Assembly: GCF_036010665.1 (NCBI RefSeq)
Contig: NZ_CP108581.1
Span: 6,443,501 to 6,507,500, forward strand
Direction of reading: 5' to 3'
DNA: 64,000 nt
DNA from: Microbispora sp. NBC_01189
GTDB lineage: Bacteria; Actinomycetota; Actinomycetes; Streptosporangiales; Streptosporangiaceae
Made by a program: the position numbers and the translations under genes. The notes under the pieces are model-generated. The model worked only from the letters and a program-made list of their open reading frames with translations. It was not told the origin of the DNA and did not search any database. Below, piece by piece: positions 34,297 through 40,659 of this stretch. Position 1 is the stretch's first letter. Every line of letters begins with the position of its first letter.

Positions 34297-35466
34297 ATGA
34301 GCAACGAGGTCCTGGACGAGGTACGCGCGCTGCTGCCGGAGATCGCCGCCCGCGCCCGCGCCGTCGACGAGGAACGGCGGGTCCCCGCGGAGTCGATCGG
34401 CGAGTTGTCCCGGGCCGGGGTCTTCCGGATGCTGCAGCCCAAGAGGTACGGCGGCGCGGAGAGCGACCCGGTGCGCTTCTACGAGGTGGTGCGGGAGATC
34501 TCGGCGGTGTGCGGGTCGACGGGCTGGCTCGTGTCCGTCCTCGGCGTGCACCCCTGGCAGCTCGCCCTGTTCGAGGAGGCCGCCCAGGACGAGGTCTGGG
34601 GGAGCGACCCCGGCGTGCTGGTCTGCTCGTCGTACGCGCCGGTCGGGCGGCTCGTCCCGGCCGAGGGGGGATACCGCCTGTCCGGCCGGTGGCGGTTCTC
34701 CTCGGGCTGCGGGCACGCGTCGTGGGCTCTGCTCGGCGGTCTCGTGATGGGCGCCGCGGGCCGGCCGGCGGACGTCGTCACCGTGCTGGTGCCCCGCTCC
34801 GACTACGCGATCGACGACGTCTGGGACGTCATCGGGCTGCGCGGCACGGCCAGCGACGACATCGTCGCCGAGGACGCCTTCGTGCCCGCGCACCGGGTGG
34901 TGCGCAACCACGACCTGGCCCGGCTGCGCGGGCCGGGTCAGCAGGTGAACACCGGCCCGCTGTACCGGATCCCGTTCGGCTCCGTGTTCACCACCACGAT
35001 CACCGCGCCGATCATCGGGATGGCCTCCGGCTGCTACCGGTCGTACGTGTCGGCAATGCGCGACCGCGTACGGCTCAGCCTGGGCGGCGGCGGCCGGTTC
35101 GCCGACGACCAGTTCGCGCAGGTCGCCGTCGCCCGGGCGGCCTCGGAGATCGACGCGGCGGCCCTGCAGACCGACCGCAACGTGCGGGAGGTCTACGAGC
35201 ACGCGGTGCGGGGCGAGGCGATCCCGGCCGAGCTGCGGCTGCGGGTGCGCCGGGACCAGGTCCGCGCCACCGAGCGGGCGCTGGAGGCCATCGACGTCCT
35301 GTTCAAGACGGCGGGGGGCAACTCCCTCCGCCGCGGCAACCCCATCGAGCGGGCCTGGCGCGACGCCCACGCCGGTGGCGTCCACGTCGCCAACGACGTC
35401 GAGCGCGCCCTCGCGATGTACGGCAGGGGAGAGTTCGGCCTGCCCATGGAGGACAACCTCATCTGA
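34297..35466 (+). CDS. Acyl-CoA-dehydrogenase-fold flavin monooxygenase, HsaA-like
   Basis: A 389-residue protein of the group D flavin monooxygenases (HsaA, HpaB-type C2, DszC relatives), which use FMNH2 made by a separate reductase to hydroxylate aromatics or heteroatoms. It shows GVFRMLQPKRYGG, REISAVCGSTGWLVSV, the middle-domain RLSGRWRFSSGCGHASW and GLRGTASDDIV, and a C-terminal bundle ending VHVANDVERALAMYG with no acyl-CoA dehydrogenase catalytic Glu-Gly-Thr motif. It starts 22 bp after the TetR stop, so it is probably in the same operon. The substrate is unknown. Confidence 0.88.
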   Translation: MSNEVLDEVRALLPEIAARARAVDEERRVPAESIGELSRAGVFRMLQPKRYGGAESDPVRFYEVVREISAVCGSTGWLVSVLGVHPWQLALFEEAAQDEVWGSDPGVLVCSSYAPVGRLVPAEGGYRLSGRWRFSSGCGHASWALLGGLVMGAAGRPADVVTVLVPRSDYAIDDVWDVIGLRGTASDDIVAEDAFVPAHRVVRNHDLARLRGPGQQVNTGPLYRIPFGSVFTTTITAPIIGMASGCYRSYVSAMRDRVRLSLGGGGRFADDQFAQVAVARAASEIDAAALQTDRNVREVYEHAVRGEAIPAELRLRVRRDQVRATERALEAIDVLFKTAGGNSLRRGNPIERAWRDAHAGGVHVANDVERALAMYGRGEFGLPMEDNLI

Positions 35467-35546: not shown

Positions 35547-36854
35547 ATGCGGCTTGAGGTCGGCTTCGCCGCCAGCCGTTCCGGTACAGCGGAGTTCGCC
35601 TGGGGACAGCGGGCTATCTGGGGAGCCGTCCAGCAGGTCGGGCCGGACAGCGCGCACTACTTCAACGTGCCCAGGGTCCTCGCCGTCCCGCGCGCGGGCG
35701 GCCCGCGCCCTCCCGAGGCCGTGGCCGCCGCCCTGGCCGAGGTGACGGGCCGGCACGACGCCCTGCGGTCCCTGGTGCGGCTGGGCGCGGACGGTCCGTA
35801 CCAGGAGGTGGCCGCGGCCGGGACGCTGCCGGTCGAGCTGACCGAGGCGGCCCGCGACGAGGCGGGCGACGCCGCGGCGGCACTGGTCGCCCGGCTGGCC
35901 GCACGGTCCTTCGGGGACGGCGAGCAGCCGCTGCGCGCCGGGTTCGTGGTCTGCGACGGCGCCGTCACCCACGTGGCCCTCGTGATCAGCCACGTCGTCG
36001 CGGACTGGCACGCGGCCGGCGTCGTGGTGAACGACCTGCGGACGCTGCTGCTCCGCGGCGCGATCGCGCGCCCGCCGTCGTCGCAGCTGCTCGACCTGGT
36101 GCGGGAGGAGCGGGCGGCGCCCGCCCGTTCGGACCGCGCGATCGCGCAGTGGGAGGCGCTGCTCCGGACCGTGCCGTCCGCCATGTTCCCGGAGGCGGCC
36201 CGGCCGGCCTCGACGCCGAGGTACGCGCGGGCCGTGCTGACGTCGCCCCGGCTGAACCACGCCGCGTACGTGCTCGCCCGCCAGACCGGGGTCAGCACCG
36301 CCACCGTCCTGCTGGTGGCGGTCGCCATGCTGCTGCGAGAACTGACCGGGCACGAGGTGTCCGCGATCACCCCGATCGTGCACAACCGCTTCGACGACCG
36401 GACCCGGGACCTGGTCACCAGCCTCAACCAGCTCGGGCTGTTCACCCTGGGCCCGAGCGGAGGCCTCGCCGAGACGGTCGTGAGCGCGTATCCGGCGGTT
36501 CTCGCGTCCTACCGGCGGGCCCGCTACGACACACCGGCCATGCAGGCCATGATCGACCGGCTCGGCGCCGACCGGGGAGTCTCGGTGTTCCCGTCCTGCT
36601 GCTTCAACGACCTGCGCCCCGGCGAGGATCAGGGCACCGCCGGCCGCGCGGACGAGGAGTCCGAGCTGGAGTGGCTTCCCGGCACCGATCAGCGCAGCTG
36701 CGACTTCTGCGTGGCTTTGATGCGCCACAAGGGCACGCTCGGCGTGGAGGTGAACGCCGACACCACCCGCCTGTCCGAGGGTGAGATGGAGACCCTGCTG
36801 CACCGGCTGGAGTCCTTCGTCGTCGCCTCCGCCCACCGGCAACCCGCCAGTTGA
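35547..36854 (+). CDS. Stand-alone condensation-domain-like acyltransferase
   Basis: A 435-residue protein of the NRPS condensation/CoA-dependent acyltransferase superfamily. The catalytic HxxxD motif is H149-V-V-A-D153 in ISHVVADWHAAG; the first His of the usual HHxxxDG pair is Ser. Other supporting parts are RHDALRSLVR at the N-terminal crossover and VSTATVLLVAVAMLLRELTG with ITPIVHNRF near the floor loop. No adenylation or carrier domain is attached or nearby, so it probably joins an acyl or aminoacyl group to a free partner. AAGGAGAG precedes ATG 35547. Confidence 0.82.
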   Translation: MRLEVGFAASRSGTAEFAWGQRAIWGAVQQVGPDSAHYFNVPRVLAVPRAGGPRPPEAVAAALAEVTGRHDALRSLVRLGADGPYQEVAAAGTLPVELTEAARDEAGDAAAALVARLAARSFGDGEQPLRAGFVVCDGAVTHVALVISHVVADWHAAGVVVNDLRTLLLRGAIARPPSSQLLDLVREERAAPARSDRAIAQWEALLRTVPSAMFPEAARPASTPRYARAVLTSPRLNHAAYVLARQTGVSTATVLLVAVAMLLRELTGHEVSAITPIVHNRFDDRTRDLVTSLNQLGLFTLGPSGGLAETVVSAYPAVLASYRRARYDTPAMQAMIDRLGADRGVSVFPSCCFNDLRPGEDQGTAGRADEESELEWLPGTDQRSCDFCVALMRHKGTLGVEVNADTTRLSEGEMETLLHRLESFVVASAHRQPAS

Positions 36855-37218
36855 GCTAAGCCGGTGAGCCAAGCGGGATCGTGAGCGTATCCAGGCGCTG
36901 TAGGTGTCCCGGTTTGATCGGTGCTCCCACTGTTGGAAGGCTGGAAGGAAGGCCTGCCCAGGCGGCTGTCAAGTTCGTGTACCTCCTGCACCGGGCGGCG
37001 ACTCTCGGTGATGATGTCGTACGGCTTGCGCACGTCGGCCTGAAGACCGGACGTTCTATTCCCCTTCTGAGAGCGAGTGACGTGAATACCAGGGAAAGAC
37101 CGGCCCGTGCGCCGGTCGTGATCGAGACGCGACCGCCGCTTCACGCCCGGCCTATGCGAGCATCGGTCACGGCGGTGATGACTTGGCGGATCGACAGAAC
37201 GACGGTGTGGGAGGTGTG
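36855..37218. other. Non-coding stretch of lower GC before the ATPase/TOPRIM pair
   Basis: About 360 bp with visibly lower GC than the flanks and no gene I can support on either strand; open frames lack ribosome-binding sites and familiar motifs. It marks the left side of a probable acquired island. No tRNA, transposase or direct repeats were recognised here. Confidence 0.5.
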
Positions 37219-38287
37219 ATGACCCGGGAGATGCCATTCCTACGGCGGGCGCGGGTGACGAACTACAAGAGCATCGCCTCCTGCGAGGTCGTCTTCGCTC
37301 CGTTGCTGATCCTGCTGGGTCCCAACGGAGCGGGCAAGAGCAACTTCGTCGATGCTCTGCTGTTCGTCGCCGACGCACTGGCGTCGACCCCTGCGGACGC
37401 GGTGGCCAGACGAGACGGACTGGACGAAGCGCTCCGGCGGGTTCCGGAGGCTGTCGACGAGTTCAGTGTCGAGCTGGAGCTCATGGTCGAACTCGACGGC
37501 GAATCGAAGCCGGCGAAATATGCCTTCACTCTCGGCCGAGACGTTACAGAATCCCGATCTCTGGTCGTCAGGAGGGAGCATTGCGTCCTTCAGCTGGCCG
37601 CTGCCGATGAGGAGGACGAGGCCTGGCTGGCGGAGTTCGAAGTGGAGAATGGCCAGATCGCGGGGGGTGGCCGGATCGAGCGGGATCGGCTATACCTGCC
37701 CCTCGTCGCGACCACGCAGGGTGAATTCACGGAAATTTATTACGGCCTTCGGTCGATGGTGTTTCACCACTTGGACACCGATCACATGAGGAAGATCGCG
37801 CCTGACAGAAGCGGCACCCAGCTTGGCTACGCAGGAGAGCGCCTGGGGTCTGTTCTCGGCCATCTGGAGAGGAACCATCCCACCTTCAAAGCCCGTGTTG
37901 ACGACTATCTCAAGGCGATCGTCCCGGAAGCGGTGGGGGTGAGCCAGCGCATGATCGGCACTTACTCAACAGTGGAATTGCACACCCGTAGCGGGGAGCG
38001 TTCCTTCGGTCCGGAGGCCATCTCGGAGGGAACCCTCCACGCGACGGGTGTGCTGGCCGCGCTTTCCAGCCCGTTGTCCTGGACGGGAAGGCCACTCTGG
38101 TGGCAATCGAGGAACCGGAGACCGCACTTCACCCGGCTGCCGCACGGTGCGAGTGGTGTCGATGTCCGAGGGGATCACCGTGATCGGTGAGATGGACGAG
38201 GTCAGCCGCCGCCTTGTCCAGGACAGGCGGACCACGGTCGGTGAACTGCTGCGGGGTGGCCAACTCCAGCCCGAGGTAGGCAGATGA
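37219..38287 (+). pseudogene. Decayed AAA (RecF/OLD-like) ATPase of a DUF4276 two-gene system
   Basis: The N-terminal part encodes an SMC/RecF-type ATPase: VTNYKSIASCEV, Walker A GPNGAGKSN (34-42), and later ISEGTLHATGVLAAL (signature-like). The frame breaks at TTT 38063-38065, where one more T would give ALFQPVVLDGKATLVAIEEPETALHP, containing Walker B (VAIEEPE). After HPAAA the D-loop/H-loop segment is missing and the sequence jumps to VRVVSMSEGITVIGEMDEVSRRLVQDRR, the expected C-terminus, in a different frame. So a frameshift and an internal deletion are both present. GGGAGG precedes ATG 37219. The C-terminal frame still ends as ATGA over the next gene. The unmodified reading frame would stop at 38190. 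Confidence 0.8.
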
Positions 38288-38922
38288 CTGATCTGATCAC
38301 CGCATCCCCCCGTGTGGCAGGTCCGATCACGATCGCCTCCGTTGTGGAGGGCGACGGCGAGGTGTCCGCGCTTCCCGTGCTGCTTCGCAGGATCGCTCAT
38401 GCGTTCTCGATTTGGGACGTGCGGACTCCGCCACCGCGCCGTATCCCTCGCAGCAGGCTGGTCGCTCCCGGCGGCGTCGAGGCTGCCGTCCTGCAGGCGT
38501 CCTACCAGGTGACCGGTGCGGGTGGCGTCCTGCTGCTGATCGACTCCGACGACGACTGCCCGGCCGCCCTCGGCCCCGCGCTCCTCAAGAGGGTCCGCCA
38601 GGCACGCAGGGACAGAGAGATCTCGGTGGTGCTCGCCCACCGGGAGTTCGAGGCGTGGTTCCTGGCCGCTGCGGAGTCGCTGTCAGGGTGCCGGGGGCTC
38701 GCGGTCCCGCTGGCGCCGCCTGCGAATCCGGAAGGAATCCGAGATGCCAAAGGGTGGCTGTCCGTACGGCAAGACCTCGGCAAGACCGACGGCACACGAT
38801 ACAAGGAGACCGTGGACCAGGCGGCGCTGGCCGCGCTCTTCGACATGGAGCAGGCCCGTAAGGCAGCCCCCTCCTTCGACAAGTTCTGGCGCGAGGTCAA
38901 ACGACTTCTGAGCACCGAATGA
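38284..38922 (+). CDS. DUF4276 (TOPRIM-like) protein, partner of the decayed ATPase
   Basis: A 212-residue intact protein. SVVEGDGEVSALPVLLRR carries the TOPRIM-type glutamate (E22 or E26) and LLLIDSDDDCP the D-x-D motif (D87, D89); EFEAWFLAAAESL is the signature of DUF4276. TOPRIM proteins cut or process nucleic acid with divalent metal. In related loci a RecF/OLD-like ATPase and a TOPRIM protein form an anti-phage pair in which the TOPRIM protein is the effector. Here the ATG overlaps the old ATPase stop as ATGA, so translation was coupled. Activity without the ATPase is uncertain. Confidence 0.82.
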   Translation: MTDLITASPRVAGPITIASVVEGDGEVSALPVLLRRIAHAFSIWDVRTPPPRRIPRSRLVAPGGVEAAVLQASYQVTGAGGVLLLIDSDDDCPAALGPALLKRVRQARRDREISVVLAHREFEAWFLAAAESLSGCRGLAVPLAPPANPEGIRDAKGWLSVRQDLGKTDGTRYKETVDQAALAALFDMEQARKAAPSFDKFWREVKRLLSTE

Positions 38923-39078
38923 GGAGCGGTGCGCTCAGCTTGACGACCATGGCCGAGCCGAGCCCGATGTTCGCCGCGGACGCGGTAACCTACGGTGTTC
39001 ACCGCAGTTGGGAGCCCGGATGCCTCGATCGCACGATCACACCACGACGACCCGCGCCCGTACGCCGGAGACGCGGCG

Positions 39079-40659
39079 ATGAGCGCCGTGACGGGTGAGG
39101 CGGCGCGGCGCCGGACGTTCGCTGTGATCAGCCACCCGGACGCCGGAAAGTCCACGATGACCGAGGCGCTCGCCCTGCACGCCTCGGCGATCACCCAGGC
39201 CGGTGCGGTGCACGGCAAGGCCGGGCGGCGGGGCGTGACGTCGGACTGGATGGAGATGGAGCGCGCCCGCGGCATCTCGATCACCTCGGCGGCGCTCCGC
39301 TTCGACTACCGCGGCCACGTGTTCAACCTGGTCGACACCCCCGGCCACGCCGACTTCTCCGAGGACACCTACCGCGTGCTGGCCGCGGTCGACTGCGCGG
39401 TGATGTTGCTCGACGCGGCCAAGGGCATGGAGCCGCAGACCATGAAGCTGTTCGAGGTCTGCCGCCACCGCCGCATCCCGGTCATCACGTTCGTCAACAA
39501 GTGGGACCGGCCGGGCCACGAGCCGCTGGAACTGCTCGACGAGATCGAGGAGCGGACCGGCCTGCGCCCCACCCCGGTGACCTGGCCCATCGGCGCCGCC
39601 GGGAACTTCCACGGGGTGGTCGACCGGATCGACGGCCGCGCCGTCCGCTACACCCGCACCCCGGGCGGCGCCACCAAGGCGCTGGAGACGACGTTGACGC
39701 CGGGGGAGGCGGAGGCCGATCTCGGGGCCGACTGGACCAGGGCGCGGGAGGAGAGCGACCTGCTCGCCGCCATCGGCGCCGAGCACGACCAGAAGGCGTT
39801 CGAGGCGCACGAGGCGACGCCGGTGCTGTTCGGCGCGGCGTTGTCCAACTTCGGCGTGGCCCGGCTGCTGGACCTGCTGGTCGACCTCGCGCCCGCGCCG
39901 GCGCCCCGGGCGGACGTCGAGGGCGCGGCCCGGCCGCTGGACGCTCCGTTCGCGGGCCTGGTGTTCAAGGTGCAGGCCAACATGGACCCGGCCCACCGGG
40001 ACCGCATCGCGTTCGTCCGGGTCTGCTCCGGCCGCTTCGAGCGCGGGATGGTGCTCACCCACGCCGCGACCGGACGGCCGTTCGCCACGAAGTACGCCCA
40101 GTCGGTGTTCGGCCAGGAGCGCGCCACCATCGACGAGGCCTTCCCCGGGGACGTCGTCGGGCTGGTGAACGCGACCGCCCTGCGCCCCGGCGACACCCTC
40201 TACGAGGGCGCGGCCGTGGAGTTCCCGCCGATCCCGAGCTTCGCCCCCGAGCACTTCGCCGTGGCCCGCTCCCGGAGTACCGCCAAGGCCAAGCAGTTCC
40301 GCCGCGGCATCGACCAGCTCGACGGCGAGGGCGTGATCCAGGTGCTGCGCTCCGACCTGCGGGGCGACCAGGCGCCCGTGCTGGCGGCGGTCGGGCCCAT
40401 GCAGTTCGAGGTCGTGCAGCACCGCCTGGCCGCCGAGTTCGGCGCGGAGATCGTGCTGGACCGGCTGGAGTACACTCTGGCCCGCCGTACCGACGCCGAG
40501 TCGGCCGAGGTGCTGCGCCGCCAGCGCGGCGCGGAGGTGCTCATGCGCGGCCGGGACCAGGCCCTGCTCGCGGTGTTCACCGACCAGTGGCGCATGCGGT
40601 CGATCCAGCGCGAGCACGAGGGCCTGACCCTGGAGCCGCTCATCGCCGGCCAGGGCTGA
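39079..40659 (+). CDS. prfC: Peptide chain release factor 3
   Basis: A 526-residue translational GTPase that recycles RF1/RF2 after termination. The G1 motif is ISHPDAGKST, the switch I region GVTSDWMEMERARGISITSA, G3 DTPGHADFSED, G4 NKWDRPG, with the RF3-specific domains II and III (QSVFGQERATIDEAFPGDVVGL, PMQFEVVQHRL). ATG 39079 has GGAG 8 nt upstream; the longer frame from 38995 would add 28 unrelated residues. RF3 has a patchy distribution in actinomycetes. It directly follows the defence-like island without an obvious operon partner. Confidence 0.95.
   Translation: MSAVTGEAARRRTFAVISHPDAGKSTMTEALALHASAITQAGAVHGKAGRRGVTSDWMEMERARGISITSAALRFDYRGHVFNLVDTPGHADFSEDTYRVLAAVDCAVMLLDAAKGMEPQTMKLFEVCRHRRIPVITFVNKWDRPGHEPLELLDEIEERTGLRPTPVTWPIGAAGNFHGVVDRIDGRAVRYTRTPGGATKALETTLTPGEAEADLGADWTRAREESDLLAAIGAEHDQKAFEAHEATPVLFGAALSNFGVARLLDLLVDLAPAPAPRADVEGAARPLDAPFAGLVFKVQANMDPAHRDRIAFVRVCSGRFERGMVLTHAATGRPFATKYAQSVFGQERATIDEAFPGDVVGLVNATALRPGDTLYEGAAVEFPPIPSFAPEHFAVARSRSTAKAKQFRRGIDQLDGEGVIQVLRSDLRGDQAPVLAAVGPMQFEVVQHRLAAEFGAEIVLDRLEYTLARRTDAESAEVLRRQRGAEVLMRGRDQALLAVFTDQWRMRSIQREHEGLTLEPLIAGQG

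Follow-up and report, generated by a model that had tools for sequence, protein, structure and literature searches.

A decayed and putatively acquired member of the candidate anti-phage system HEC-01 in Microbispora sp. NBC_01189

A two-gene locus of Microbispora sp. NBC_01189 consists of a broken gene for a RecF/SMC-like ATP-binding cassette (ABC) ATPase and, overlapping its end on the same (forward) strand, an open gene encoding a DUF4276 protein. The window analyzed here (the whole 64-kb stretch of DNA) spans positions 6443501–6507500 of a 7.37-Mb genome assembled as one contig and 100% complete; coordinates below are those of the window unless another locus is named. Pfam assigns the ATPase to AAA_21 and its partner to DUF4276, and both genes match profiles of HEC-01 (Hma-embedded candidate 01), which is represented in PADLOC-DB 2.0 by HEC-01A and HEC-01B as a candidate anti-phage system.

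The ATPase pseudogene is distributed over three reading frames. Its first piece (37219–38063, frame 1) contains the Walker A motif GPNGAGKS (37318–37341) and the signature region, the second (38064–38146, frame 0) contains Walker B as VAIEEPE at 38100–38120, and the third (38147–38287, frame 2) is the C-terminal tail, whose TGA (38285–38287) overlaps the DUF4276 ATG at 38284. Read from the ATG at 37219, frame 1 reaches a stop at 38188–38190 and encodes 323 aa without Walker B and with an out-of-frame tail. All three pieces match one PADLOC profile, HEC-01A (PDLC04178), in order (profile positions 1–282, E 1.5e-81; 280–305, E 7.9e-8; and 340–383, E 1.1e-11), and such ordered matches to a single profile show that the pieces are not chance. 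The coordinates, frames, and Walker motifs given in a preliminary description of the locus were thus all reproduced. An imperfect inverted repeat also lies inside the pseudogene (37980–38053; 28-nt arms, 86% complementary, separated by 18 nt).

Two breaks separate the pieces. For DNA comparison we used seven fetched loci with a whole ATPase (six distinct, as L103 repeats L022), and relative to these the window has one base fewer between 38063 and 38064, within the 38063–38065 interval where the preliminary description had located a one-base loss. At the second break, placed by alignment blocks at 38141–38147, 103 bases are missing after Walker B, including the D-loop and the switch region; a deletion of the D/H-loop region had been suspected there, and comparison with intact homologs bears it out. 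The loss is seen against all seven loci (six distinct), and a protein alignment of the window ATPase with 16 relatives agrees. The lost part corresponds approximately to residues 307–342 of the relative P0123. It spans the helix that follows Walker B and the strand bearing the TTQS switch, and is in the predicted structure part of the ABC head. Judged from its sequence, the window ATPase is broken.

The HEC-01B/DUF4276 gene (38284–38922) is open, as the preliminary description had stated together with its ATGA overlap, and encodes 212 aa with a predicted TOPRIM-like fold. It matches the HEC-01B profile PDLC04196 at E 2.1e-74, and all 15 of its PADLOC matches (E up to 1) are HEC-01 models, the AriB profile not being among them. 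A TOPRIM motif combines a Glu that follows the first strand with a DxD closing one of the later core strands; here E22/E26 follow strand 15–21 and D87/D89 stand at the end of strand 80–88. These residues are conserved in 33/33 sequences of an alignment that includes the window protein, which retains every residue invariant in it. The predicted fold and motifs suggest that the protein is probably a metal-dependent nuclease. It also contains a 12-base in-frame insertion (38770–38781, residues 163–166), and the relative P0055 has a different insertion near the same residues.

By sequence, the locus is best classed as a horizontally acquired, decayed member of HEC-01, and not as a new kind of system. 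Gene order and orientation are the same as in HEC-01, the two genes overlap or nearly abut in relatives, and the HEC-01A match extends over almost the full length of the nearest named relatives, those from Streptosporangium fragile and Microbispora (P0122, E 8.9e-132). The window differs in that its ATPase is a pseudogene, broken twice, so that the two genes are not both intact. In a control, PDLC04178 at E 0.001 found something in 14/14 named control genomes; because weak E-values against this profile are not specific, the assignment to HEC-01 rests on the partner gene and the strength of the match. The host genome has a second ATPase (L148:1312–2880; match at G000:C1:1516848–1517879) that matches HEC-01A at E 1.1e-31, and ATPase matches in several congeners lie in open frames of 504–524 aa, similar in size to this gene.

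The preliminary description related the pair to OLD/GajA and PARIS; the ATPase-plus-TOPRIM logic of that comparison holds, but the closest named system is HEC-01 instead. PARIS, with its ABC ATPase AriA and TOPRIM nuclease AriB, is discussed as class 4 OLD in the available part of PMC10568477. It likewise has separate ATPase and TOPRIM-like genes, and the ATPase of an intact relative matches AriA at E 5.3e-26; AriA is not among the Foldseek/VIA matches listed for the ATPase, an absence from that list only. PARIS differs in its partner, since that of the window is DUF4276, and in an antitoxin-like restraint that the loss pattern among HEC-01 relatives (see below) does not support. The predicted structure of DUF4276 is closest to the C-terminal TOPRIM region of OLD, but in OLD and GajA (Gabija) ATPase and TOPRIM are in one polypeptide, whereas they are separate genes in the window and its relatives, and the OLD/GajA ATPase profile scores far lower than HEC-01A. 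The ATPase heads of Menshen (NsnB), MADS (Mad3), AbiL (AbiLi), and Septu/retron PtuA are related to that of HEC-01 in profile matches or structure predictions, but their ATPase scores are weaker and their models are absent from the DUF4276 matches. Several HECs are active against phages according to the available text of PMC12988326, in which HEC-06 is named and HEC-01 is not among the names; “HEC” does not occur in the available text of PMC8565338. In the full-text literature (preprints and most subscription papers lying outside it) we found no study of the mechanism of HEC-01 or DUF4276, and one mention in the context of phage defense, in a listing of systems in Desulfovibrio. A defense role for the DUF4276/ATPase clade is presumptive.

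The locus lies in an inserted segment of 2,124 bases (36850–38973) that replaces approximately 25 bases of two congeners. In blastn comparisons with these nearest congeners (G001 and G014), homology ends at 36849 and restarts at 38974 in both, and in both the condensation-domain gene (left neighbor in the window, 35547–36854) adjoins prfC, encoding peptide chain release factor 3 (right neighbor, 38995–40659); the two neighbors are host background. The resemblance of the two empty sites favors a gain in the window lineage, and no DUF4276 relative was found in 14/14 congeners. Transfer, proposed earlier from a patch of lower GC content, is thus visible as an insertion. The patch itself is confirmed: GC content is 65% in the insert vs. 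74–75% in the 6-kb flanks, and at third codon positions 76–81% vs. 94–97% in three neighbor genes. Identity to S. fragile (87% for DUF4276, 74% for the ATPase) points to a donor that was probably Streptosporangium-like, and comparison of the flanks with G001 (96.5% and 97.6% identical) suggests that the insertion is probably recent.

The “empty 360-bp flank” of the preliminary description is in fact part of the insert. Within this flank, which is single copy in the genome (36855–37218), a stretch at about 36986–37091 matches the region upstream of L029, a locus with a whole ATPase, in 87/107 aligned columns. It is probably a leader or promoter region native to the operon, and the match suggests that the cassette probably arrived with a front end of its own. 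There was no Rfam family in 36700–39200, no promoter-like site in a scan of the locus, which gave one terminator-like site vs. 0.9 expected, and no inverted repeat joining the insert ends among the six repeat pairs listed; nothing in these results marks the insert as a transposon. No relative was confirmed among 19 pattern matches in viral contigs, and on plasmids three Streptomyces records showed 41.5–43.1% identity.

The preliminary description treated the two genes as a pair, a view that would fail if DUF4276 homologs never neighbored such ATPases. They do so regularly: an ATPase match lies upstream of DUF4276 in 76/80 loci from named genomes, and a larger set of queries finds an ATPase tail or more in 80/80 (these loci are the best 80 of 299 confirmed and a non-random sample). 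Whole ATPases of relatives are single frames. Together with 29 loci from family genomes these made 109, or 91 after removal of 18 duplicates, the window itself being left out; several are drafts or metagenome bins, L097 included. The automatic count gave 72 whole pairs, and inspection moved six more loci (L047, L048, L051, L071, L081, and L123) to this class, as their flagged stops were absent or at natural ends, or a divergent gene was found open. Both genes are accordingly whole in 78/91 distinct loci. The ATPase alone is broken in three (L026, L097, and L125), DUF4276 alone in four (L029, L030, L121, and L122), and both genes in two (L088 and L124), while a contig end cuts the ATPase in the other four (L045, L055, L061, and L091). 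The pairing is therefore real and orphan DUF4276 is tolerated; either half can be lost first in relatives, which hints that DUF4276 is harmless without its partner.

In Sinosporangium album, an OrfB/TnpB-type element (L026:5303–6832; Pfam OrfB_IS605) lies beside the last 44 ATPase codons, with DUF4276 open and no further ATPase parts found in the 14.6-kb locus, and in L125 (genome G089) approximately 26 ATPase codons remain. The right junction of the 103-base deletion (38147) and the start of the S. album remnant (L026:6870) both lie within a few bases of the same conserved VRVV codons, and the L097 frame break is also near them; with two or three cases this may be chance. L029:7001–7677 and L030:7001–7599 have a whole ATPase and a DUF4276 frame shifted at about the same place (residues 45–59), which may be decay, draft error or something regulated. 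Among 394 genomes sampled from the class, DUF4276 was found in 11, with misses possible since 8 and 4 first-look candidates were scored per genome (9 in another search). One of the 11 is the window, and seven adjoin a near-full-length ATPase match (including G561, with a partial DUF4276 match); G089 has no ATPase match, G499 is partial and has none, and G591 is partial with a truncated ATPase match. Poribacteria account for 32/80 of the named-genome loci, and in three of these (L048, L057, and L074) a second ATPase match just downstream suggests tandem copies.

Taken together, the locus is best explained as an acquired HEC-01 cassette whose ATPase is dead and whose inert partner is drifting, to which we assign a probability of roughly 0.8. 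A cassette of a RecF/SMC-like ABC ATPase and a DUF4276 TOPRIM-like protein would have entered, probably from a Streptosporangium-like donor, and landed with its own leader between the condensation-domain gene and prfC. The one-base loss and the 103-base deletion break the ATPase and, by sequence, leave the pair dead as a sensor-effector system. By analogy with PARIS/OLD kin, the ATPase of intact copies most likely responds to a phage trigger by turning the nuclease on; the nuclease would be idle without ATP-driven activation by its ATPase, so that loss of the ATPase first would be tolerated and the orphan DUF4276 would drift. Loci that have lost one half are informative here, because a toxin under restraint would seldom be expected to survive the loss of its antitoxin, whereas an effector that needs activation can persist without its partner. 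The orphan pattern argues weakly for activation over PARIS-like restraint, as a broken ATPase with intact DUF4276 (3/91 plus the window) is about as common as the reverse (4/91), whereas restraint predicts a shortage. That control in HEC-01 is opposite to that in PARIS, with an effector inert until activated by its ATPase and viable natural knock-outs (the window, L026, and G089/L125), we put forward tentatively, at slightly under even odds.

Some observations fit a rival, PARIS-like arrangement, in which a toxic TOPRIM nuclease is sequestered by its ATPase and the orphan persists only by being silent, inefficiently translated or inactivated. In the available parts of PMC11455837 and PMC12409363, AriA sequesters AriB, and release is toxic. 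In the window, the truncated ATPase frame stops 93 bases upstream of the DUF4276 start and coupled translation is probably lost, and the 12-base insertion, which none of the other 32 aligned relatives has, could be an inactivating change; the broken loci are also few, and of the three in which the ATPase alone is broken, L097 is a metagenome bin. Yet the window protein deviates at only 1/74 highly conserved positions, and given also the loss pattern we consider such restraint unlikely, if the most serious of the alternatives. A further alternative is that the orphan has been retained for a function of its own, either by itself or together with a different ATPase acting in trans: DUF4276 is open with its catalytic motifs, its pairwise ratios of nonsynonymous to synonymous substitution rates (dN/dS) are 0.15–0.22 vs. 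seven relatives (0.12–0.33 between those relatives), and the genome has the second ATPase that matches HEC-01A. However, with a probably recent insertion the open frame is not evidence of use, the dN/dS mostly reflects time before the ATPase broke, and several congeners also hold ATPase matches in open frames though a DUF4276 match occurs in 0/14. Relative rates lean toward relaxation, with more private changes in the window DUF4276 than in that of S. fragile against 5/5 outgroups (two of them significant); a tilt in the same direction is seen for the ATPase piece (5/5, one significant), which deviates at 6/105 highly conserved positions vs. 1/102 in S. fragile. None of these measures (relative rates, counts at conserved sites, and dN/dS) proves that DUF4276 is under selection or that selection on it has been lost, and retention for its own use appears improbable.

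An intact ATPase disguised by assembly or sequencing error has on its side that just one base is involved in the first break and that a second assembly, known from proteins alone, disagrees with the window by frame. Its protein P0141 (189 residues, on an 8,842-base contig) equals the window ATPase over approximately 150 residues and then continues in window frame 2, changing frame at a six-G run (37662–37667) in a way that fits one G fewer; either error or a strain difference accounts for this disagreement between the assemblies. But the second assembly's frame is also broken, at another place, and P0141 gives no whole ATPase. A search for a C-terminal ATPase fragment of that assembly returned one distant protein only, which decides nothing. 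Two contigs have records of the identical DUF4276 protein. Reads restoring a single frame, which the preliminary description had allowed for, could not explain the 103-base loss, which by its alignments is beyond base-calling error in a complete one-contig genome, so that error is largely refuted and highly improbable. Programmed frameshifting, suggested by pieces ordered on one strand, has next to no chance, being refuted by the deletion: the missing bases hold conserved core, and relatives' whole ATPases are single frames. On the preferred explanation of an acquired cassette with a dead ATPase, the window would be a natural ATPase-null allele of HEC-01, for which relatives supply named allele pairs, and an example of a defense-like cassette that a single actinomycete lineage both acquired and broke. 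Outside the insert, the region 34297–35466 strongly matches HsaA, which is the oxygenase subunit of a secosteroid monooxygenase, at 652 bits against a cut-off of 450.
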